Assembly (NCBI GenBank): GCA_944385945.1
Contig: CALWZD010000079.1
Location: 17,078 to 81,077, forward strand
Reading direction: 5' to 3'
DNA length: 64,000 nt
From: an uncultured Anaerofilum sp.
Lineage (GTDB): Bacteria > Bacillota > Clostridia > Oscillospirales > Ruminococcaceae
The position numbers and the translations under genes are program-made. Numbering within the stretch: the stretch's first letter is position 1; each line of letters begins with the position of its first letter. The notes beneath the pieces were generated by a model, which saw only the letters and a program-made list of their open reading frames with translations, had not been told where the DNA came from and did no database searches. Positions 27,938 through 63,346 of the stretch are shown here, one piece after another.

Positions 27938-27976
27938 GTTTTCACCGCACAAACGCCCCATAGATGTGCGGTGAAA
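27938..27976 (+). terminator. Palindrome after coaBC
   Basis: Arms 27938-27950 and 27964-27976 form a perfect 13-bp stem just past the coaBC stop. There is no T-run beyond it on the + strand, so termination may be inefficient. The pyr promoter begins eight bases later. Confidence 0.6.
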
Positions 27977-27983
27977 AATTGGG

Positions 27984-28012
27984 TTGACAAGCAGCCTATA
28001 CCATGATAAAAT
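27984..28012 (+). promoter_or_regulatory. Sigma-A promoter of the pyr operon
   Basis: TTGACA (27984-27989), a 17-base spacer and TAAAAT (28007-28012) with a T-G-A extended -10. This is close to the ideal consensus, and initiation would fall near 28019, giving a leader of about 190 bases before pyrB. Confidence 0.88.
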
Positions 28013-28047
28013 AATATGAAATTTATCGAAGAAAGGAGAACAATGGG

Positions 28048-28134
28048 ATGTTGAAACAGGCGAAAATGTACATTGGTTCTTCTTTCGGTTTTGCAGTTTG
28101 CAAGGGGCATTTTGTCCCGTTTTTTGTGTTTTAA
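28048..28134 (+). CDS. Candidate pyr leader peptide (attenuator ORF)
   Basis: A 28-codon frame starts at ATG 28048, about nine bases after AAGGAG (28033-28038), and stops at TAA 28132-28134. The stop overlaps the first bases of the terminator hairpin. Its 3' half is T-rich (28110-28132) and ends F-V-P-F-F-V-F. This is the arrangement of the enterobacterial pyrBI leader, where coupled translation during UTP-limited transcription blocks termination. An earlier ATG at 28043 gives only three codons. The peptide itself probably has no function; the act of translating it would be the signal. No PyrR-binding consensus was recognised. Confidence 0.65.
   Translation: MLKQAKMYIGSSFGFAVCKGHFVPFFVF
28104..28119 (+). 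promoter_or_regulatory. Candidate transcription pause hairpin in the pyr leader
   Basis: A short GGGG/TCCC stem (28104-28107 with 28115-28118, one G-U pair) is followed by a run of T after base 28119. A weak hairpin plus U-run upstream of the terminator matches the UTP-sensitive pause site of pyrBI leaders. Confidence 0.4.
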
Positions 28135-28163
28135 CTTTTCCTTTCGGGGAAAAGTTTTTTTTT
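28133..28163 (+). terminator. Intrinsic terminator (attenuator) upstream of pyrB
   Basis: Arms 28133-28141 and 28148-28156 form a 9-bp stem followed by a T-run through 28163. It lies between the promoter and pyrB, so it must be conditionally read through for the operon to be expressed. Confidence 0.88.
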
Positions 28164-28209
28164 GCCCAAAAGGATTTTGGAAAGGCTTGTTACAAAAGGA
28201 GTGTGCTTT

Positions 28210-29280
28210 ATGCTGAAAACCCATTCTTTGATCGAACCGCAGGATTTGTCGGTGGAGGAGATCGACCATCTGTTTGCTCTTGCCGACGACATCAAAAATC
28301 GTCCGCAGCTGTATGTCAACGCTTGTGCAGGTAAGCTGATGGGGACCTTGTTTTACGAGCCCAGTACACGCACCCGTCTGTCGTTCGAATCGGCAATGAA
28401 CCGATTGGGAGGCAGAGTGGTCGGCTTCTCCGACCCTGCTTCCTCCAGTGCGACCAAGGGAGAAACCGTCGCCGACACGGCACGTATGGTCAGTGCATAC
28501 GCCGACATCATCGTAATGCGTCACCCGTGGGAGGGCGCACCCAAAGTTGCCAGCCTGTACAGCGACATTCCGGTCATCAATGCAGGGGACGGCGGTCACA
28601 ATCACCCCACCCAGACCCTCACCGACCTGTACACTTTCCACACCGTATTCGGTCGTACCTGCGATTTGAACATTGCGCTGTGTGGCGACTTGAAGTTTGG
28701 TCGCACCGTCCACAGCCTGATTTTGGCAATGAGCCGGTATAAGAATGTGTCGTTCAGCCTTATCAGCCCCAAAGAACTGCGCCTGCCCGACTACCTGCTC
28801 GACTTTATGAAAGAAAAGCAGATCCCCTATAAAGAGGTAGAGAAAATCGAGGATGCCATTGCCGAGTGCGATGTTTTGTATATGACCCGCATTCAGCAGG
28901 AGCGATTCTCGGACAAAGACGAATACGAACGTTTGAAAGATTGCTACGAGCTGGATACCGAAAAAATGAAACTGGCAAAGCAGGATATGATCGTGATGCA
29001 TCCGCTGCCACGTGTTAAGGAAATCAGCACCGAGGTCGACTACGACCCCCGTGCAAAATATTTCCGTCAGGCACGATACGGAATGTTTATCCGCATGGCA
29101 CTCATTCTGGAACTGCTCGAGGGGGGCTATCAGCCCAAAAATACTCGTTTGGTTCCCACCGAGCGCAAATGCAGCAATCCCCGTTGTATCTGCAACCATC
29201 AGGATGAACCGCAGCAGATGCTGAAGATCGGCGAGGGAGTTTATCGCTGCCTGTACTGCGACCACACCGAAAAGGATTGA
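28210..29280 (+). CDS. pyrB: Aspartate carbamoyltransferase with a C-terminal PyrI-like zinc module
   Basis: Encodes 356 residues. Residues 1-310 are the catalytic chain, with the carbamoyl-phosphate motif S52-T-R-T-R56, H-P-T-Q-T-L-T-D-L near 135 and H-P-L-P-R-V near 265. A 45-residue extension follows, with C321-x4-C326 and C347-x2-C350. This is the same Cys spacing type as the zinc domain of the regulatory chain PyrI, but the nucleotide-binding domain of PyrI is absent. The enzyme makes carbamoyl-aspartate, the committed step of pyrimidine synthesis. AAAGGAG eight bases before ATG 28210 decides the start. No separate pyrI is present in the operon. Confidence 0.93.
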
Positions 29281-29296: not shown

Positions 29297-30472
29297 ATGT
29301 TATTGAAAAATGCAATGTTAGCCGACGGCACTCCTGCCGATTTGTGGCTGTACGAGGGAAAGATCCGTGCCATCGGGCAAAATCTGCCTGCAAACGGGGA
29401 CGAGGTGATCGACCTGCAAGGGCGCACGGTATTGCCCGGGTTTGTCGACCTGCACTGTCACTGGCGTACCCCCGGTTTTGAGTATAAGGAAGATTTGCAA
29501 ACAGGTTCCCGTTCGGCTGCTGCCGGTGGATACACCTATTTGAATCTGATGCCCAACACCAAACCCGTCTGCTCGAGTGCCGAGCAAGCCCGTGATATTC
29601 AACGGAGAGTAAAAGAGATCAGTCTGTGCGAGGCAAACCAGACGGTGAGCATCACCGAAAATTTCGACGGCACCAGTGTGCAGCGTTTGCTCGATTTGCC
29701 CGATGATGTCAAATTCATCACCGAGGACGGTAAAGGTGTGCAAAACAATGCTGTCATGGCAAAAGCGTTTGCCATCTGCCGTGAAAAAGGCGTCGTACTG
29801 ATGAGCCATGCCGAGGATATGGAGATCTCGCCGTGGGATTACCGCCTTGCAGAAAATATCGAAACCGTGCGCAATATCCACCTCAGCGAGTATTATGGCA
29901 CTCGTTTGCACCTGTGCCATGTAAGCACCAAAGAAGCCATTCTTGCTATCAGCGAGGCAAAACAAAAGGGCTTGCCTGTCACCTGCGAGGTGACACCGCA
30001 CCACCTGTGGTTCCACGATTTGGAGTATAAGGTCAATCCGCCCATCCGCCAGCAAGCCGATGTAGAGGCGTTGGTGGCTGCCATCAAGGCGGGCTATGTG
30101 GACGCCATCGCTACCGACCACGCACCCCATTCTGCCGAGGATAAGCAAAAAGGCATGGCAGGTATGGTGGGCAGCGAAACGGCTTTCGGTGTTTGCTACA
30201 CCAAGCTGTGTCTGCAAGAGGGCGTATCGCTGCAAATGTTGAGCGATTTGATGAGCTATTACCCTGCCTGCATCATGGGGCTGGAGAATAAGGGACAGAT
30301 AAAAGTCGGCTGGGATGCCGATTTGACAGTGGTGGATTTGGAGCATCCGTATACTGTCGACCCTGACACTTTCCTCAGCAAAAGCCGTAACACTCCTTTC
30401 GCCGGCGAAACGCTGTACGGTAAAGTTTGTATGACCTTGAAAGGTGGAAAAATCACCTTCCAAGCCGAGTAA
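29297..30472 (+). CDS. pyrC: Dihydroorotase PyrC
   Basis: A 391-residue amidohydrolase that closes carbamoyl-aspartate to dihydroorotate. The metal site D-L-H-C-H-W-R-T-P-G-F-E-Y-K-E sits near residues 52-66 (the usual form is D-x-H-x-H-x-R-x-P-G), with N-L-M-P-N-T-K-P near 90 and D-H-A-P-H near 275. AGGAGG precedes the ATG by a short spacer and the gap after pyrB is 16 bases. The following 180 bases before pyrF contain an imperfect hairpin (about 30497-30530) and a promoter. Confidence 0.94.
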   Translation: MLLKNAMLADGTPADLWLYEGKIRAIGQNLPANGDEVIDLQGRTVLPGFVDLHCHWRTPGFEYKEDLQTGSRSAAAGGYTYLNLMPNTKPVCSSAEQARDIQRRVKEISLCEANQTVSITENFDGTSVQRLLDLPDDVKFITEDGKGVQNNAVMAKAFAICREKGVVLMSHAEDMEISPWDYRLAENIETVRNIHLSEYYGTRLHLCHVSTKEAILAISEAKQKGLPVTCEVTPHHLWFHDLEYKVNPPIRQQADVEALVAAIKAGYVDAIATDHAPHSAEDKQKGMAGMVGSETAFGVCYTKLCLQEGVSLQMLSDLMSYYPACIMGLENKGQIKVGWDADLTVVDLEHPYTVDPDTFLSKSRNTPFAGETLYGKVCMTLKGGKITFQAE

Positions 30473-30576: not shown

Positions 30577-30652
30577 GGGATAAATATACAAGATATTATA
30601 AAAATATTCACTATTTTATTGAAAATATTCAAAATAGATGGAGGACACCGCT

Positions 30653-31519
30653 ATGACCAATATGGATAAACTGTTCGACGCTGTTGCCAGCCGTGGCCCT
30701 GTTTGTGTGGGTCTGGACACCGACTTCGGCTATCTGCCCGCCGATTTTGTAAAATCCGAGCTGACCGCAGGCGAAAACATCGTGCGCTTCAACAAAGCGA
30801 TCTTGGAAGCAACCAAAGCACAGGCAGGCTGCTATAAAGTACAGGTCGCTTACTACGAGTGTCTGGGCATGGACGGTATGCGGGCATATGCCGAAACACT
30901 GCGCATGGTGCGTGAAGCAGGCATTCCGGTAATTGCCGACATCAAACGTGGCGACATCGCAAAAACCGCTGAAATGTATGCAAAAGCACACTTCGAGGGT
31001 GACTTTGAAGCAGACTATATCACACTGGCACCCTATATGGGCATGGATTCCATCAACCCCTACATGAGCTATGTAAAGGAAAAGGGCAAGGGTCTGTTCG
31101 TACTGGTACGCACCTCCAACCCCGGCGCAAAAGATTTTGAATACGAAAAATTGGCAGACGGTCGCCATGTCTACGATCTGGTAGGCGATAAACTCAGCGC
31201 ATTGGGCAAAGAGTGCATCGGTGAGCGGGGTTATTCCAGCGTTGGTATGGTCATCGGCGGGACCCACATCGAGGAGGCTTCCGAAATCCGTGCAAAATAC
31301 AAAGACAGCTTCTTCCTCATCCCCGGCTACGGCGCACAGGGCGGTACTGCGACTGACATCGCTCAGTACCTGACCAACGGCAACGGCGGTGTGGTAAACT
31401 CCAGCCGTGGTGTGCTGTTGGCATACAAAAAGCAGGAGGGTGTAAAGTTCGACGAGGCTGCTTACAATGAATGCGTAAACATGAGAGGAGCGATCGCTGA
31501 TGCGTGCAGTAAACTGTGA
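30653..31519 (+). CDS. pyrF: Orotidine 5'-phosphate decarboxylase PyrF
   Basis: A 288-residue enzyme of the longer OMP decarboxylase subfamily, converting OMP to UMP. The catalytic D96-I-K98-R-G-D101-I motif is intact, and L-I-P-G-Y-G-A-Q-G-G near 220 forms the phosphate loop. ATG 30653, eight bases after GGAGG (30640-30644), is preferred to the ATG at 30638. The 3' end overlaps the pyrK start by 20 bases. Confidence 0.94.
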   Translation: MTNMDKLFDAVASRGPVCVGLDTDFGYLPADFVKSELTAGENIVRFNKAILEATKAQAGCYKVQVAYYECLGMDGMRAYAETLRMVREAGIPVIADIKRGDIAKTAEMYAKAHFEGDFEADYITLAPYMGMDSINPYMSYVKEKGKGLFVLVRTSNPGAKDFEYEKLADGRHVYDLVGDKLSALGKECIGERGYSSVGMVIGGTHIEEASEIRAKYKDSFFLIPGYGAQGGTATDIAQYLTNGNGGVVNSSRGVLLAYKKQEGVKFDEAAYNECVNMRGAIADACSKL

Positions 31520-32267
31520 TTGCAAAGTTCTGGAAAATATCCGTCTGAACGACACCATCTGTATGCTGAAGGCAGAGTGGACGGATCAAGAACACGCACC
31601 CAAAGCAGGACAGTTCTATATGCTGCGCTGCTGGCGACAGGACGAAGCACCCTTGCTGTCCCGTCCCATCAGCGTACACGAATGGGACGAGGCTGCAAAT
31701 ACGGTTACCTTTTTGTACGAAGTGCGTGGCGAGGGTACCCAAAAGATCGCTGCACTCAAAGCAGGCGAATTGCTCAACCTGACCGGTCCTGCCGGTAACG
31801 GCTGGCCCGTAGACCAGTTGTTGGGCAAAAAGGTCGCACTGGTGGGCGGTGGTATCGGTACCGCTCCGCTGTATCAGCTGGCAAAAGAACTGGCAGCCAA
31901 AGGCGAAAAGCCCAGCTACTTCGCAGGTTTCCGTGATGAACCCTACCGTATGGAGGCATTCGAGCCGTTCTGTGCTTGCACTGCACTGGCGACCGACAGC
32001 GGACGCTTCGGCTATCATGGACTGGTGACCGAGCTGTTCGATGCAAAGGAATACGACGTCATCTGCTGCTGTGGCCCCACCCCCATGATGAAAGCTGTTA
32101 CAAAACTGGCACTCGAAGCAGGTACCGAGATTTTGGTCAGCCTCGAAAACAAGATGGCTTGTGGCATCGGTGCCTGCTTGGGCTGCACCTGTCACACCAA
32201 AAAAAGCGGAGCCATCAGCGTATGTAAACAAGGTCCCGTGCTGAAAGGAGAGGACGTCTATGGCTGA
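31500..32267 (+). CDS. pyrK: Dihydroorotate dehydrogenase electron-transfer subunit PyrK
   Basis: A 255-residue FAD and [2Fe-2S] protein that passes electrons from PyrD to NAD+. The flavin motif R55-P-I-S58, the G-G-G-I-G-T-A-P loop near 116-123 and the iron-sulfur ligands C221-x4-C226-x2-C229-x12-C242 are all visible. AGGAG lies inside the end of pyrF, and both ends overlap neighbours, indicating tight translational coupling with pyrF and pyrD. Confidence 0.95.
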   Translation: MRAVNCDCKVLENIRLNDTICMLKAEWTDQEHAPKAGQFYMLRCWRQDEAPLLSRPISVHEWDEAANTVTFLYEVRGEGTQKIAALKAGELLNLTGPAGNGWPVDQLLGKKVALVGGGIGTAPLYQLAKELAAKGEKPSYFAGFRDEPYRMEAFEPFCACTALATDSGRFGYHGLVTELFDAKEYDVICCCGPTPMMKAVTKLALEAGTEILVSLENKMACGIGACLGCTCHTKKSGAISVCKQGPVLKGEDVYG

Positions 32268-33165
32268 TTTGCGTGTAAATCTGTTGGGCAAAACATTGAA
32301 CGGCCCTGTCATCGGCGCATCCGGTACCTATGGCTACGGTGTAGAATATGCCGATATGGTCGAACTGGCAAAACTGGGCGGTGTTTGCAGCAAGGGTCTG
32401 ACACTCAACGGCAAGCCCGGCAACGAGGGCGAACGCCTGTGGGAAACCCCGTCGGGCTTGATTAACTCCATCGGTCTGCAAAACCCCGGTGTACAGCACT
32501 TCATCGACCACGAACTGCCTGAGATGCAGACGATGGGAACTGCCATCTTTGCAAACCTCGGCGGTGGCTGCATCGAAGACTACGAGGAAGGCACCCGTAT
32601 GCTGAATGCAACGGCGGTCGACTTCATCGAACTGAACATCTCCTGCCCCAATGTAAAGCATGGCGGTATCGCTTACGGCGTCAAAGCCGAAAGCGCAAAA
32701 GAAGTGGTAAGCCGTGTGAAAGCGGTCTGCCAAAAACCCCTGATCGTAAAGCTCAGCCCCAATGCTGAAAACATCTCGGAAATGGCAGCCGCTTGCGTGG
32801 AAGCCGGTGCTGATGCGCTTAGCCTTGTGAACACCTTCCAAGCAATGGCAATCGACCTGGAAGCCCGAAAACCCGTATTCAAAAACGTATACGCAGGTCT
32901 GTCCGGTCCCGCTATCCGTCCTATTGCACTGCGTATGGTGCATCAGGTGTGCAAGACGGTACAGGTTCCCGTCATCGGATTGGGCGGCATCGCCACCGGT
33001 CGGGATGCGCTCGAGTTCATCATGGCAGGTGCGACCGCCGTACAGGTGGGCACCGCAAACTTCGCAGACCCCAAAGCCTGCACCCGCATCACCGACGAAA
33101 TGGCAGCATGGATGGATAAAAACGGCGTGAAAACGCTGGACGAGATTCGTGGCTGCTGCCTGTAA
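32260..33165 (+). CDS. pyrD: Dihydroorotate dehydrogenase PyrD, class 1B catalytic subunit
   Basis: A 301-residue FMN enzyme. The class 1 catalytic cysteine is C129 in N-I-S-C-P-N-V-K. G-L-G-G-I-A-T-G-R-D-A-L-E-F-I near 245 is the FMN phosphate site. Adjacent pyrK shows that it is the NAD+-linked heterotetrameric form. It overlaps pyrK by eight bases. Confidence 0.95.
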   Translation: MADLRVNLLGKTLNGPVIGASGTYGYGVEYADMVELAKLGGVCSKGLTLNGKPGNEGERLWETPSGLINSIGLQNPGVQHFIDHELPEMQTMGTAIFANLGGGCIEDYEEGTRMLNATAVDFIELNISCPNVKHGGIAYGVKAESAKEVVSRVKAVCQKPLIVKLSPNAENISEMAAACVEAGADALSLVNTFQAMAIDLEARKPVFKNVYAGLSGPAIRPIALRMVHQVCKTVQVPVIGLGGIATGRDALEFIMAGATAVQVGTANFADPKACTRITDEMAAWMDKNGVKTLDEIRGCCL

Positions 33166-33211: not shown

Positions 33212-33808
33212 ATGAGCAGAAATCCTATTGAAGTATTGAAAGAGTGCGAGGCCTTTTTGGAGGGTCATTTCCTGTTGTCGTCCGGCCGTCATTCTTCGGC
33301 ATATTGCCAGATGGCATTTTTGCAGCAGTACCCCGACAAATGCGGCGAGGTAATGGCTGTTGTTGCAGAAAAATTGAAAGACTTGGACGTTGACGTTATC
33401 GTTGGCCCCGCAATGGGCGGTATCGTATATGCTTACGAGTTGGCTCGTCAGCTGGGCAAACGTGCCATCTTCACCGAGCGTGTGGATAACGTGATGACCC
33501 TGAAACGCTTTGCAATCAAACCGGGTGAAAAATGCCTGATCGCCGAGGACGTTGTCACCACCGGTATCTCCTCGCTGGAAACCAAGCGTGTCATCGAAGA
33601 AGCCGGCGGCGTATGTCTGGGCATCGCTTGTGTAGTTGACCGCACCAAGGCAGACGCACCCTCTCCCATCGAGATTTTGGCAAGTGCTGCAAAACTGGAT
33701 CTGCCCAACTACCTGCCCGAAGAATGCCCCATCTGTGCAGAGGGCAAGCTGCCTTTGGTACATCTGGGCAGCCGCAAAATGAAAGAACAGGCAAAGCAGA
33801 CCCTGTGA
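33212..33808 (+). CDS. pyrE: Orotate phosphoribosyltransferase PyrE
   Basis: A 198-residue type I phosphoribosyltransferase joining orotate to PRPP. The PRPP-binding motif L-I-A-E-D-V-V-T-T-G-I-S lies near 109-120, and the N-terminal L-S-S-G-R-H-S-S segment contacts orotate. AGAAGGAGG precedes the ATG. It lies between pyrD and carA, completing the pathway in one operon. Confidence 0.93.
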   Translation: MSRNPIEVLKECEAFLEGHFLLSSGRHSSAYCQMAFLQQYPDKCGEVMAVVAEKLKDLDVDVIVGPAMGGIVYAYELARQLGKRAIFTERVDNVMTLKRFAIKPGEKCLIAEDVVTTGISSLETKRVIEEAGGVCLGIACVVDRTKADAPSPIEILASAAKLDLPNYLPEECPICAEGKLPLVHLGSRKMKEQAKQTL

Positions 33809-33852
33809 TCTCCCCCAAGTGCTGCAAATTATCAAGAAAAGAGGGAAATTCT

Positions 33853-34941
33853 ATGAAGGCATATCTGCTTCTGGCTGACGGAACCCTGTTCGAGGGCAAA
33901 AGCCTCGGCGCACAGGGAACTACCATCGGCGAGGTCGTTTTCTCCACCGGTATGGTGGGCTTTGAAGAAACCCTGACCGACCCCAGTTATTATGGACAGA
34001 TCATCACCCAGACCTACCCGCTCATCGGCAACTACGGCATGAACAGCGAGGACAAGGAAAGCAAAAAGATCTGGGCAAAAGGCTATATCGTGCGTGAAAG
34101 CTGCCAGTACCCCAGCAACTTCCGCTGTGAGGAAACACTGGACGCATTCCTGAAAAAAGAGAACATCGTTGGCATCGAGGGTGTCGATACCCGTCGCTTG
34201 ACCCGCATTCTGCGCAGCCACGGTGTTATGAACGGTGCCGTTACCACCGAGTATTCCGAGGAGAACCGTGAAGCTCTGTTGGAGCAGATTCGTGCGTACT
34301 CCATCGTGGACGCCGTAAAAGCTGTTACCTGCACCGAAAGCAGTGTTTCGGGCGAAGGCAACAAGTACAAGGTGGCACTGCTCGACTTCGGCTGCAAAAA
34401 CAACATTGTTCGTTGTCTGGTAAAACGTGACTGCGAAGTGACCGTTCTGCCCGGCTTTGCAACTGCCGAGCAAATTTCCGCACTGGGCGTGGATGGCGTA
34501 ATGTTGTCCAACGGCCCCGGCGACCCCGCAGAAAACACCGAAATCATCGAGAATCTGAAGTCCATCATGGCACTGGGCTTGCCGGTATTCGGCATCTGTT
34601 TGGGTCATCAGCTGTCGGCTTTGGCTGCCGGCGCAAAGACCGGAAAGCTGAAATTCGGTCATCGTGGCGCAAACCAGCCTGTCACCGACCTGCTGCACGA
34701 CCGCACCCTTATCACCAGCCAGAACCACGGCTATGCAGTTCTGGGCGAAACACTTCCTGCCGAAATGGGCGCAGTCAGCCATGTGAACGCAAATGATAAG
34801 ACCTGCGAGGGCGTACGCTATACCGCATGGAACTGCTTCACTGTACAGTTCCACCCCGAAGCAAGCGGCGGCCCGAAAGACGCCGAGTATCTGTTCGATG
34901 AATTTATCAGCCGCATGGCTGCAAAGAAAGGAGAGTGCTGA
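33853..34941 (+). CDS. carA: Carbamoyl phosphate synthase small subunit CarA
   Basis: A 362-residue glutaminase subunit. The triad is C249 (F-G-I-C-L-G-H-Q), H334 and E336 (F-H-P-E-A-S). The N-terminal domain (1-150) contacts CarB. The frame is open from 33724, inside pyrE, but GAGGG before ATG 33853 and the family N-terminus (M-K-A-Y-L-L-L-A-D-G-T) decide the start. carB begins one base after the stop. Confidence 0.95.
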   Translation: MKAYLLLADGTLFEGKSLGAQGTTIGEVVFSTGMVGFEETLTDPSYYGQIITQTYPLIGNYGMNSEDKESKKIWAKGYIVRESCQYPSNFRCEETLDAFLKKENIVGIEGVDTRRLTRILRSHGVMNGAVTTEYSEENREALLEQIRAYSIVDAVKAVTCTESSVSGEGNKYKVALLDFGCKNNIVRCLVKRDCEVTVLPGFATAEQISALGVDGVMLSNGPGDPAENTEIIENLKSIMALGLPVFGICLGHQLSALAAGAKTGKLKFGHRGANQPVTDLLHDRTLITSQNHGYAVLGETLPAEMGAVSHVNANDKTCEGVRYTAWNCFTVQFHPEASGGPKDAEYLFDEFISRMAAKKGEC

Positions 34942-34942
34942 A

Positions 34943-37900
34943 ATGCCAAAGGATACATCCATCAAAAAGGTTCTGGTGATCGGCTCCGGCCCCATCATCA
35001 TCGGACAGGCTGCGGAATTTGACTATTCCGGTACTCAGGCTTGCCGTGCGCTCAAAAGCGAAGGCATCGAGGTAGTGCTCATCAACTCCAACCCCGCTAC
35101 CATTATGACCGACCCCGAGATCGCCGACCGTGTTTATGTCGAGCCGCTCAATGTTGAGGTCGTAAAACGTGTTATCGAAATCGAAAAGCCCGACTCCATT
35201 TTGCCCAACCTTGGCGGTCAGACCGGCTTGAATCTGGCAATGGAACTGGCTCGCAGCGGTTATCTGGAGGAAAGCGGCGTTCGTCTGTTGGGTGCAAAGC
35301 CCGACACCATCGACCGTGCCGAAGACCGTCAGCTGTTCAAAGACACCATGGAAAAATTGGGTCAGCCCTGCATCCCCAGTAAGGTCGTTGAAACTTTGGA
35401 AGATGCACTGGCATTTGCTGCTGAAATCGACTACCCCGTTATCGTTCGCCCTGCATTCACCATGGGCGGTACCGGCGGCGGTATCTGTGCCAACGAGGAA
35501 GAACTGCGTGAGATCGGCACCAACGGTCTGCGTCTGTCGCCCATCCATCAGGTGCTCATCGAAAAATGTATCGCCGGTTGGAAAGAGATCGAATACGAAG
35601 TAATGCGTGACGGCAAAGGCAACGTGATTACTGTATGTAACATGGAGAACTTCGACCCCGTTGGTGTTCACACCGGCGACTCCATCGTTGTTGCTCCCAG
35701 CCAGACCCTGTCCGACCACGAGTATCAGATGTTGCGTACCGCTGCTCTGGACATCATCACCGAACTGGGCATCGAGGGTGGCTGTAACTGTCAGTTCGCA
35801 CTGAAACCCGACTCCTTCGAATATGCCGTTATCGAGGTAAACCCCCGTGTTTCCCGTTCGTCGGCACTGGCTTCCAAAGCGACCGGTTACCCCATCGCAA
35901 AGGTAGCAGCTAAAATCGCCATCGGTTACAGCTTGGATGAGATCATCAACGAAGTTACCGGTGAAACCTGCGCTTGCTTCGAGCCTGCACTGGACTACGT
36001 TGTCGTAAAATATCCGAAATGGCCTTTCGACAAGTTCGTTTATGCAAAGAAAGACCTCGGCACCCAGATGATGGCGACCGGCGAAGTTATGGCGATCGGC
36101 ACCAGCTTTGAGGCTGCCATGATGAAGGCTGTTTCTTCCATCGAACTGGGTCTGGAAACCCTCACTCTGCCCACTTTGGCAGAGGATAGCGATGAAACCA
36201 TCATCGAAAAATTGCACAACTGCGACTCGGAACGTGCATTTGTTGTATACGAAGCCCTCAAGCGTGGCATTTCTTGGGAAGTTATCCACGACATCACCAA
36301 GATCGACCGCTGGTTCTTGGCAAAAATGCAGCACCTGGCAGACATGGAAAACGCCATGGCAAAAGGCGAGTTGACCGAAGAAAGCTACCGTGCAGCCAAG
36401 CAGTACGGCTTTATGGATAAGACCATCACCCGACTGACCGGTAAGGAGATTCCCGTAGAGCTTCACGCTTCTTACAAAATGGTAGATACCTGCGCAGCCG
36501 AGTTTGCTGCAAAGACCCCCTACTTCTACTCCAGCTTTGACGAGGAGAACGAAGCAGAGGAGTTCATTCGTCAGCATCCCACCGACCGCAAAAAGGTCAT
36601 GGTATTCGGTTCCGGCCCCATCCGTATCGGACAGGGCATCGAGTTCGACTATTGCAGCGTTCACTGCGTATGGACACTGAAAGAAAACGGCTGTGAAACC
36701 ATTCTGGTCAACAACAACCCCGAAACCGTTTCCACCGACTTCGACACCGGCGACCGTCTGTACTTCGACCCGCTCAACCCCGAAAGCGTTGCACACATCA
36801 TCCACACCGAAAAACCGTGGGCGTGTGTGGTACAGTTTGGTGGACAGACTGCCATCAAGCTGACCAAAGCACTGGAAAAAATGGGCGTGAAGATTCTGGG
36901 TACCAGTGCCGATGCCATCGACGAGGCAGAAGACCGTGAACGTTTCGACGCTCTGCTCGAGCGTTGCGGAATCCCCCGTCCTGCCGGCGAAACCATTTTC
37001 ACCTGCGAAGAAGCTTTGGCTGCTGCTGCACGGTTGGGCTATCCTGTTTTGCTTCGTCCCAGCTACGTTTTGGGCGGTCAGAACATGATCATCGCTTACA
37101 ACGAAGCAGACGTTGTGGAATATATGGGTATCATCACCAGCCACGAACTGGAAAACCCCGTTCTGGTCGACAAATATCTGACCGGTGTAGAGTGTGAAGT
37201 CGATGCGATCTGTGATGGCGAGGAGTTCCTCATCCCTGGCATCATGGAGCATATCGAACGTGCCGGTATCCACTCCGGTGACTCCATTTCGGTCTATCCG
37301 CCTCAGACACTGGCACAGAAAATCAAAGGCGTTTTGGTCGACTATACCGGTCGTCTGGCAAAGGCTTTGAAGGTCGTGGGTCTGGTAAACATCCAGTACG
37401 TTGTACACGACGGCAAGGTATACGTTATCGAGGTGAACCCCCGTTCCTCTCGTACCGTTCCTTATATCAGTAAAGTTACCGGTGTGCCTGTTGTAGAGCT
37501 GGCTGTCCGCTGCCTGTTGGGTGAAAAACTTTCCCAAATGGGCTACGGTACCGGTCTGTACCCCACCGGTGACATCTGCGCCGTAAAAGTTCCTGTATTC
37601 AGCTTCGAAAAGCTGCACAATGTAGATACCCAGCTTGGACCCGAAATGAAATCGACCGGCGAAGTTTTGGGCATCGGCCGCAACTTCGAAGATGCAATGC
37701 TGAAAGGTCTGATCGCTGCCGGCTATCAGATGCGTCGCCCCGAACCCGAGCAGGACAAGTGTGTTCTGCTGACCGTAAAGGACGCCGACAAAGAAGAACT
37801 GACCGAAATCGCATACCAGTTCAAGCAGTTGGGCTATAAGTTGTACGCAACTTCCGGCACTGCAAACTGGCTGGCAAAGAATATGATCGCCTGCAACGAA

Positions 37901-38149
37901 GTGCGCAAAATCAGCGAGGAAGCCCCCAACATTCTCAACTTGTTGGAAAGCGGCAGAGTGGACTATGTGCTGTCCACCTCCTCCAAGGGCCGTCTGCCCA
38001 GCTTGGACAGCGTAAAACTGCGCCGCAAAGCGGTAGAATTGTCGATCCCCTGTCTGACAGCGATCGACACCGCAAACGTTCTGCTGAAGTGCTTGCAGAG
38101 CGGACGCACCATTCAGGACGTCGACCTCATCGACATTTCCACTTTGTAA
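34943..38149 (+). CDS. carB: Carbamoyl phosphate synthase large subunit CarB
   Basis: A 1068-residue enzyme with two homologous halves, each with an ATP-grasp fold; G-S-G-P-I-I-I-G-Q-A-A-E-F-D-Y begins the first and G-S-G-P-I-R-I-G-Q-G-I-E-F-D-Y the second near 550. The C-terminal domain (about 935-1068) is the MGS-like allosteric region where UMP and ornithine act in other bacteria. With CarA it makes carbamoyl phosphate for PyrB and arginine synthesis. AAAGGAG within the end of carA is the ribosome site. Confidence 0.96.
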   Translation: MPKDTSIKKVLVIGSGPIIIGQAAEFDYSGTQACRALKSEGIEVVLINSNPATIMTDPEIADRVYVEPLNVEVVKRVIEIEKPDSILPNLGGQTGLNLAMELARSGYLEESGVRLLGAKPDTIDRAEDRQLFKDTMEKLGQPCIPSKVVETLEDALAFAAEIDYPVIVRPAFTMGGTGGGICANEEELREIGTNGLRLSPIHQVLIEKCIAGWKEIEYEVMRDGKGNVITVCNMENFDPVGVHTGDSIVVAPSQTLSDHEYQMLRTAALDIITELGIEGGCNCQFALKPDSFEYAVIEVNPRVSRSSALASKATGYPIAKVAAKIAIGYSLDEIINEVTGETCACFEPALDYVVVKYPKWPFDKFVYAKKDLGTQMMATGEVMAIGTSFEAAMMKAVSSIELGLETLTLPTLAEDSDETIIEKLHNCDSERAFVVYEALKRGISWEVIHDITKIDRWFLAKMQHLADMENAMAKGELTEESYRAAKQYGFMDKTITRLTGKEIPVELHASYKMVDTCAAEFAAKTPYFYSSFDEENEAEEFIRQHPTDRKKVMVFGSGPIRIGQGIEFDYCSVHCVWTLKENGCETILVNNNPETVSTDFDTGDRLYFDPLNPESVAHIIHTEKPWACVVQFGGQTAIKLTKALEKMGVKILGTSADAIDEAEDRERFDALLERCGIPRPAGETIFTCEEALAAAARLGYPVLLRPSYVLGGQNMIIAYNEADVVEYMGIITSHELENPVLVDKYLTGVECEVDAICDGEEFLIPGIMEHIERAGIHSGDSISVYPPQTLAQKIKGVLVDYTGRLAKALKVVGLVNIQYVVHDGKVYVIEVNPRSSRTVPYISKVTGVPVVELAVRCLLGEKLSQMGYGTGLYPTGDICAVKVPVFSFEKLHNVDTQLGPEMKSTGEVLGIGRNFEDAMLKGLIAAGYQMRRPEPEQDKCVLLTVKDADKEELTEIAYQFKQLGYKLYATSGTANWLAKNMIACNEVRKISEEAPNILNLLESGRVDYVLSTSSKGRLPSLDSVKLRRKAVELSIPCLTAIDTANVLLKCLQSGRTIQDVDLIDISTL

Positions 38150-62983: not shown

Positions 62984-63025
62984 ATAACACAAAAGGTCCC
63001 TGTCTCATAAGAGACAAAGACCTTT
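62984..63025 (-). terminator. T-box-controlled terminator before ilvB
   Basis: Arms 63011-63025 and 62992-63006 pair at 13 of 15 positions plus G-U pairs; a T-rich tail follows to about 62984. This is the alternative to the antiterminator that includes 63036-63051. Confidence 0.85.
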
Positions 63026-63250
63026 ACAAAGTTCTCTGCGGTACCACTCTCATTGGCCGCCAACGGCGACCCACTCGCCCCGCACATCGTGCGGGTGTTC
63101 TGTAACGGGAACTGCCCGGCATCGCCTACACAGAAAGCCCTTCGGCGAGCAGCTATGGAAATGACTTCTTCGGATAACACCTGCACTGCCTTGCAGCTAC
63201 CGGCAGCTCTCTGAAGCGAGGTCGAAACCGAATACTTGTTTCCGTCAAAC
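62984..63250 (-). promoter_or_regulatory. T-box riboswitch leader of ilvBNC, probable valine specifier
   Basis: The minus strand contains the T-box core (AGAGTGGTACCGCAG, in 63036-63051) and the stem I elements AGTA (about 63234) and AGAGAG (about 63211-63206). The sequence GAA-GTC-A at 63162-63168 fits the specifier loop, giving GTC (valine) at 63163-63165. Uncharged tRNA-Val would stabilise the antiterminator and allow ilvBNC transcription. The exact limits are estimated. Confidence 0.9.
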
Positions 63251-63346
63251 GCTTTTTTGCTATATGCAGCACAGCTTGGAAAAGCCAAACAAAATCGTCT
63301 TTCACACAAAAGCACTGTGCCACTTTAAAGTGTCTAATTGTTTTAC

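Follow-up and report, generated by a model that had tools for sequence, protein, structure and literature searches.

A putative pyrBI-like attenuator with a predicted Shine-Dalgarno lock in the pyr leader of Anaerofilum and other Clostridia

In Firmicutes, the usual RNA-binding regulator of pyr operons is PyrR. The pyr operon of an uncultured Anaerofilum sp. raises the question of what might stand in for this protein, as a first-pass annotation of the locus saw neither a pyrR gene nor a PyrR-site consensus and proposed a translational attenuator in the style of enterobacterial pyrBI. The operon lies within a window of 64,000 nucleotides (contig CALWZD010000079.1), the whole stretch of DNA that was analysed, which comes from a genome that is 80% complete and whose numbering is used throughout.

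The pyr operon and its leader

The operon starts at 28210, downstream of coaBC, and its genes follow on the plus strand in the order pyrB-pyrC-pyrF-pyrK-pyrD-pyrE-carA-carB. These encode aspartate carbamoyltransferase with a C-terminal PyrI-like zinc tail (pyrB, 28210..29280), dihydroorotase (pyrC, 29297..30472), orotidine-5'-phosphate decarboxylase (pyrF, 30638..31519), the electron transfer subunit of dihydroorotate dehydrogenase (pyrK, 31500..32267), dihydroorotate dehydrogenase (pyrD, 32260..33165), orotate phosphoribosyltransferase (pyrE, 33212..33808), and the small and large subunits of carbamoyl-phosphate synthase (carA, 33847..34941, and carB, 34943..38149). Among the matches listed, the closest named relatives by PyrB are Anaerofilum records at 88, 84, and 82% identity. 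The C-terminal tail of the protein (residues 320-355) matches the zinc part of PyrI at E 2e-4, below the model cut-off, and the same tail was matched in many relatives. An inverted repeat read from the sequence 3' of coaBC (27939..27977, no strand assigned; coaBC identified by TIGR00521) is probably the coaBC terminator, parting that gene from the pyr promoter.

The pyr promoter, TTGACA-17-TAAAAT (27984..28012, plus strand), was recovered by a promoter scan with 11 of 12 consensus matches. The consensus promoter claimed earlier is present in near-consensus form, just upstream of the stretch to which it had been assigned. Scanning of the region returned three terminator-like sites and one promoter-like site, where shuffles lead one to expect 0.9 and 0.6. 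The transcript of E. coli pyrBI begins AAUUU. In the window, the predicted transcription start AATTT (28020..28024, plus strand; start position inferred), which the first-pass annotation had overlooked, lies 7 nt past the -10, and a reading of both sequences finds it identical to E. coli pyrBI in sequence and spacing. It is a candidate for UTP-dependent reiterative initiation, which was first found at E. coli pyrBI, codBA, and upp according to PMC6245113.

The SD sequence of the leader, AAAGGAG (28032-28038), is followed by a leader ORF of 28 codons, MLKQAKMYIGSSFGFAVCKGHFVPFFVF, which runs on the plus strand from ATG at 28048 to the stop codon TAA at 28132-28134 (28048..28134); both the peptide frame and the good ribosome site of the first-pass annotation are thus in place. 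A GGGGC-AUUUU-GUCCC hairpin (28104..28118, plus strand) followed by T6, a candidate pause hairpin, was likewise found as described, and the three further genomes of this genus have a hairpin resembling it. An intrinsic terminator with a 10-bp stem and a T-run (28133..28163, plus strand) overlaps the leader stop codon. The end of the stop codon and the beginning of the stem (28133-28156) share two bases, which confirms the overlap that had been claimed and sets it at 2 nt. The T-run is T9 (28155-28163), and an equal folding was reached by 2 of 200 shuffles. The terminator sequence is unique per genome in five of six genomes searched, always at the pyr leader, and G024, whose terminator is different, contains no copy of it. 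In 7 of the 14 leaders of the survey below, the window's among them (28155-28167), the terminator T-run leads directly into GCCC, as it also does in E. coli pyrBI.

As expected of a pyrBI-type attenuator, there is a predicted translatable leader ORF with its SD sequence upstream of pyrB, and the leader is U-rich between ribosome site and terminator. The layout matches that of E. coli pyrL, where the leader ORF likewise reaches or passes an intrinsic terminator that directly precedes pyrB. By sequence, the proposed pyrBI-style reading as a translation-coupled attenuator is well supported. The E. coli pyrBI leader is not known to have an antiterminator; in an unsystematic look at minimum-energy folds of ten of the present leaders and of L148, L149, L160, and L162, none stood out.

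Distribution and descent of the layout

The leader layout was found in 14 of 238 pyrB upstream stretches, spanning seven genera and three places in the PyrB tree. These stretches were drawn in part from the higher-ranking of 331 genomes with pyrB and come mostly from the same family and order, with the addition of 77 named contigs of several orders that are the best of a longer list. They were scanned as sets of 174, 40, and 24, the first composed of 55, the pair L148 and L149, 40, and 77. Four pairs are identical (L155/L243, L159/L245, L069/L253, L221/L222), four stretches are shorter than 420 nt, and L044-L046 were left out as the same sequences as L010, L039, and L040. The detector asked for an ORF reaching or ending near a terminator, the stop being allowed anywhere over about 95 nt or more; when widened, it found L137 (ORF through the terminator), L148, L149, L160, and L162. 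A leader placed elsewhere would be missed, since pyrB may not always be the first gene of its operon. Detector matches rejected by eye and left out of the count were L021, L023, L025, L105, L118, L127 (PyrR loop present), L150, L183, and L217; that of L023, a 27-codon ORF which we take to be SpoVM-like, lies with its own terminator about 120-210 nt upstream of pyrB.

Four leader-bearing genomes belong to the genus of the window (L009, L010, L039, L040), L011 and L012 represent two further genera, five belong to one genus (L015, L136, L140, L148, L149), and the remaining stretches are L137, L160, and L162. The first-pass annotation had asked whether the leader is conserved in related Clostridia, naming lack of a conserved frame, or a PyrR-binding loop and PyrR dependence, as the outcomes that would speak against it. 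Frame and terminator overlap are kept in four genomes of the genus and in six more genera, and neither adverse outcome was seen.

The leader frames vary from 16 to 65 codons. In 7 of the 14, the stop codon starts exactly 1 nt before the terminator stem; it lies 4 nt before the stem in L160 and inside the stem in 4 of the 14, while in L137 and L162 the ORF passes through the terminator and stops beyond it, as in E. coli pyrL. In all 14, a ribosome that completes the leader would come to lie over the terminator, partly by construction, as the detector required a nearby terminator. Openness of the ORF as far as the terminator is also partly built in because members were chosen for it; the exact register is not. 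In four leader pairs compared, the codon differences mostly change the amino acid (17/25, 18/26, 18/25, and 15/17) and are spread over all codon positions, and the conserved trait seems to be translation up to the terminator rather than a peptide. The leader ORFs are U-rich, above all in their second half, which is 0.28-0.61 U; the beginning of pyrB, taken as its first 300 nt, or as 60 nt for L160 and L162, is 0.17-0.27 U.

No match to a curated PyrR model was obtained at E<=1e-20 in any of the 14 leader-bearing genomes, six of which are 94-100% and eight 80-89% complete. The genome search for pyrR that had been recommended returned nothing above the cut-off in the window's own genome at its 80% completeness, and genus mates at 97% and 99% agree; the best phosphoribosyltransferase match in this genome is hypoxanthine phosphoribosyltransferase, not PyrR. 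The pattern CNGNGAGGYT, taken here to represent the PyrR loop, occurs in none of the 14 leaders, in keeping with the initial remark that no PyrR site is seen ahead of this operon. It occurs in ten other stretches (L014, L022, L038, L105, L120, L127, L130, L133, L139, L142), the match in L038 being the SD of pyrB itself. PyrR is present in six of seven tested genomes with the pattern ahead of pyrB; in the seventh, G015, which is without PyrR, the match falls on pyrB's own SD. Control genomes with a PyrR loop or another terminator upstream of pyrB have PyrR in seven of eight cases, all but G353. With neither gene nor binding loop found, PyrR control was set aside for this leader. Absence of PyrR by itself says little, because 33 of 61 family genomes also give no match above the cut-off, and G118 and G170 have neither PyrR nor the leader; it fits the picture and is no proof of it.

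Rfam returned nothing above threshold at the leader, where nine sub-threshold matches had a best E of 0.2 and included L10_leader at 21.5 of 44 bits, and nothing in 18 loci, the present one included. This silence carries little weight, as PyrR-type controls were silent too. A riboswitch was also considered and set aside. Elsewhere in the window, on the minus strand at 63007-63258, a T-box leader scores 104.6 bits, above the gathering threshold.

The PyrB tree was built from 53 proteins, 14 of them leader-bearing and 39 hand-picked others. Three changes are required to account for the leader-bearing rows, the well supported branches by themselves enforce the same number, and 0 of 200 bootstrap trees join the rows. 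Group A consists of Anaerofilum and two genera, group B of three genera, and group C of a single genome, G382; L022, the sister row of G382, carries a PyrR-loop leader together with PyrR. The three changes may be gains or losses. Given the different lock sequences of each group, described below, repeated origin appears likelier than transfer. No likeness to the E. coli leader was noticed by eye. The first-pass wording, an independent or transferred use of nucleotide sensing, agrees with leaders in three places of the tree.

The start motif recurs as well. ATTT lies 7 or 8 bases past the -10 in 10 of 14 leaders, whereas among the remaining 247 promoter-like sites in the loci analysed only 7 have it; the leaders that have it cover four of the seven genera, and those without it are L040, L011, L012, and L160. 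At pyrB upstreams without an attenuator the enrichment is not significant (8/90 vs 20/486, p=0.06). Among stretches without an attenuator, TAGAAT-7-ATTTG stands about 20-40 nt ahead of pyrB in L017, L141, L145, L161, L195, and L225, with ATTTC in L198; such promoters are possibly controlled by UTP-dependent stuttering alone.

Pairing over the leader Shine-Dalgarno sequence

The region that contains the leader SD (28031..28045, plus strand) is predicted by folding to pair with an in-frame, pyrimidine-rich anti-SD arm within the leader ORF (28071..28086, plus strand), forming a lock over the SD that the first-pass annotation did not mention. Its letters differ by member: the window has GAAAGGAGAACAAUG, L040 has GGAAGGAGGAACAC and a complement to match, and L160 pairs GAAAGGAGCGGUA with UACCGCUCUUUC. 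Across four species of the genus, 15 stem columns divide into eight changed on both sides with the pair kept, three changed on one side, and four invariant, a count that leans high because each sequence contributes its own predicted fold. For this comparison each row was folded alone and columns paired in fewer than 3/4 of the rows were left out; 3 of the 15 have one unpaired row.

When the downstream part is shuffled with dinucleotides preserved, the real lock duplex proves the stronger one at p<=0.023 in half of the leaders (7 of 14); taken singly, L039, L011, L015, L136, L140, L148, and L149 are not significant (p 0.10-0.78). Combining one leader per genus (L009, L011, L012, L140, L137, L160, L162) gives p=7e-6 with dinucleotide shuffles and p=2e-5 with codon shuffles. 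The probability that the SD is paired is >=0.75 in 12 of the 14 leaders (L012 has 0.749 and L149 has 0.53), versus 15 of 91 pyrB SDs assessed in 150-nt stretches. In shuffled leaders this probability averages 0.55-0.86, and only 6 of the 14 leaders are matched by no more than 5 of 100 shuffles. The distance from start codon to lock partner ranges from 20 to 124 nt across members. Taken together, the leaders show an SD lock that exceeds chance expectation, but single members do not all do so.

A simple estimate from the footprints of polymerase and ribosome indicates that a U-rich stretch of 12 U in 20 (28080..28099, plus strand) would be transcribed after the leader start site is exposed and before the lock closes. 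The U content of this timing window is above the same-length leader average in 12 of the 13 leaders judged, most single cases being modest, and the excess is absent in L012. In L040 the timing window is too short to judge, and in long leaders it amounts to much of the leader.

In E. coli and Salmonella pyrC and pyrD, an RNA hairpin hides the SD and start sites are switched. The present leaders resemble these in having a hairpin predicted to hide an SD in a pyrimidine gene leader, but they are not of the pyrC type, as the SD covered is that of the leader peptide and would feed an attenuator, whereas in pyrC and pyrD it is that of the enzyme gene. Two sister rows of group B, L125 and L131, both without PyrR and with no clear leader ORF, carry about 120-180 nt upstream of pyrB an SD-like purine tract opposite a complementary U-rich segment, at the end of which stand a T-run and either GCCC or GTCC; in these the lock itself is perhaps the terminator.

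Proposed mechanism, competing readings, and meaning

Judged by sequence, this is a conserved pyrBI-like attenuator in which the predicted SD lock is a new addition to the known scheme, and the leader probably acts as a translation-coupled transcription attenuator that reads the pyrimidine nucleotide supply of the cell. When UTP (and CTP) are plentiful, RNA polymerase would move fast through the U-rich leader, and the anti-SD arm would emerge and fold over the leader SD before a ribosome loads. With the lock closed, the leader would go untranslated, or be translated by a ribosome far behind, and the terminator would form and turn the operon off. When UTP is scarce, the polymerase would slow in the U-rich stretches and a ribosome could load on the open SD. 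Once loaded, it would hold the lock open and trail the polymerase closely to the stop codon, where its footprint would cover the 5' arm of the terminator and leave the operon on. A second reading of UTP would likely take place at initiation, where AAUUU transcripts would stutter and be wasted at high UTP. The leader peptide itself is probably discarded.

A more specific and more tentative proposal, to which we give somewhat less than even weight, is that the lock is the sensor. Since the anti-SD arm must be transcribed from UTP and CTP, nucleotide supply would set the time available for a first ribosome to load, and this one loading event would decide termination; on this proposal the arrangement had three or more separate origins among Clostridia that lack PyrR. 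The closest competitor is plain pyrBI-type attenuation, in which ribosome loading is constant and regulation acts solely on how far the ribosome lags behind the polymerase; the SD pairing would then be a by-product or no more than a pause hairpin. E. coli pyrL manages without such pairing by the same shuffle test (p=0.45), the pairing is weak in several members (L149, L140, L011), and a purine-rich SD will pair with a pyrimidine-rich ORF partly by composition, as the shuffle means above indicate. This simpler account is nonetheless rather unlikely in view of the combined lock test (p about 1e-5), the 8 of 15 stem columns that changed on both sides among species of the genus, and the strong lock of the separate lineages L009, L137, and L160.

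If the lock does govern loading, its key could also be a trans-acting protein or ligand that opens it, so that leader translation becomes the regulated step and the terminator reads the outcome. SD sequestration is a common site of control, and with PyrR not found another factor could have replaced it. Such a factor is improbable, as the sequence and position of the lock vary widely (20 to 124 nt) with no conserved site apparent, and no Rfam family reaches threshold. An attenuator that senses an amino acid or a stalled ribosome, suggested by several Phe-rich leader peptides in which Phe codons recur near the end, has very little to recommend it: a U-rich frame brings Phe codons with it, regulatory codons form no conserved run by eye, changes in the peptide are mostly nonsynonymous in four pairs, no antiterminator stood out in the folds of ten leaders, and the operon makes pyrimidines. 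The scarcely credible case of a constitutive terminator beside a chance ORF, for which one may cite that only 14 of 238 upstreams carry the layout and that an open frame to the terminator has a 0.06-0.89 chance per leader by shuffling in members selected for it, is met by the spread over seven genera and the identical stop-terminator register in 7 of 14 despite the roughly 95 nt or more allowed.

The leader can be set beside several known systems. In E. coli pyrL, leader translation is coupled to read-through (PMC5021804) and a pause in the leader has been described (PMC9291695). The present case differs in its clostridial host and eight-gene operon, in the SD lock, which was not found in pyrL, and in the stop codon, which 12 of the 14 leaders have at, beside, or within the terminator stem and pyrL has beyond it. 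PyrR-dependent attenuators of Firmicutes also act by transcription attenuation ahead of pyr genes; here PyrR is found in 0 of 14 genomes and the loop pattern in 0 of 14 leaders, and on the proposed model the attenuation would be ribosome-based. Leader-peptide attenuation in Firmicutes is represented by hisS/hisZ of Bacilli (PMC2965389) and by a leucine-rich attenuator peptide of Staphylococcus aureus (PMC5794164), which sense an amino acid via regulatory codons, in contrast to the pyr leader with no conserved codon run. According to PMC2965389, such systems were hardly known outside Proteobacteria and Actinobacteria by 2010; a small number from Firmicutes have joined them in later years (PMC5794164, PMC9226507). 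Among the matches listed from the open-licence literature, titles and the beginnings of abstracts describe no clostridial leader of this type, which is no proof of absence.

Transcription-translation coupling has been questioned in Bacillus subtilis (PMC7858274). That a pyrBI-like switch recurs in Clostridia lacking PyrR suggests that there, too, such coupling serves as a nucleotide sensor. Should Clostridia likewise run uncoupled, the default state of the leader would be off, and a slowing polymerase would be needed to turn it on. The SD lock would be a simple way to tie ribosome loading to polymerase speed. A lock that acts as the sensor, if true, would be well matched to bacteria in which RNA polymerase as a rule runs ahead of the ribosome. 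The leader also suggests a replacement for PyrR in some members of a large family of gut bacteria.
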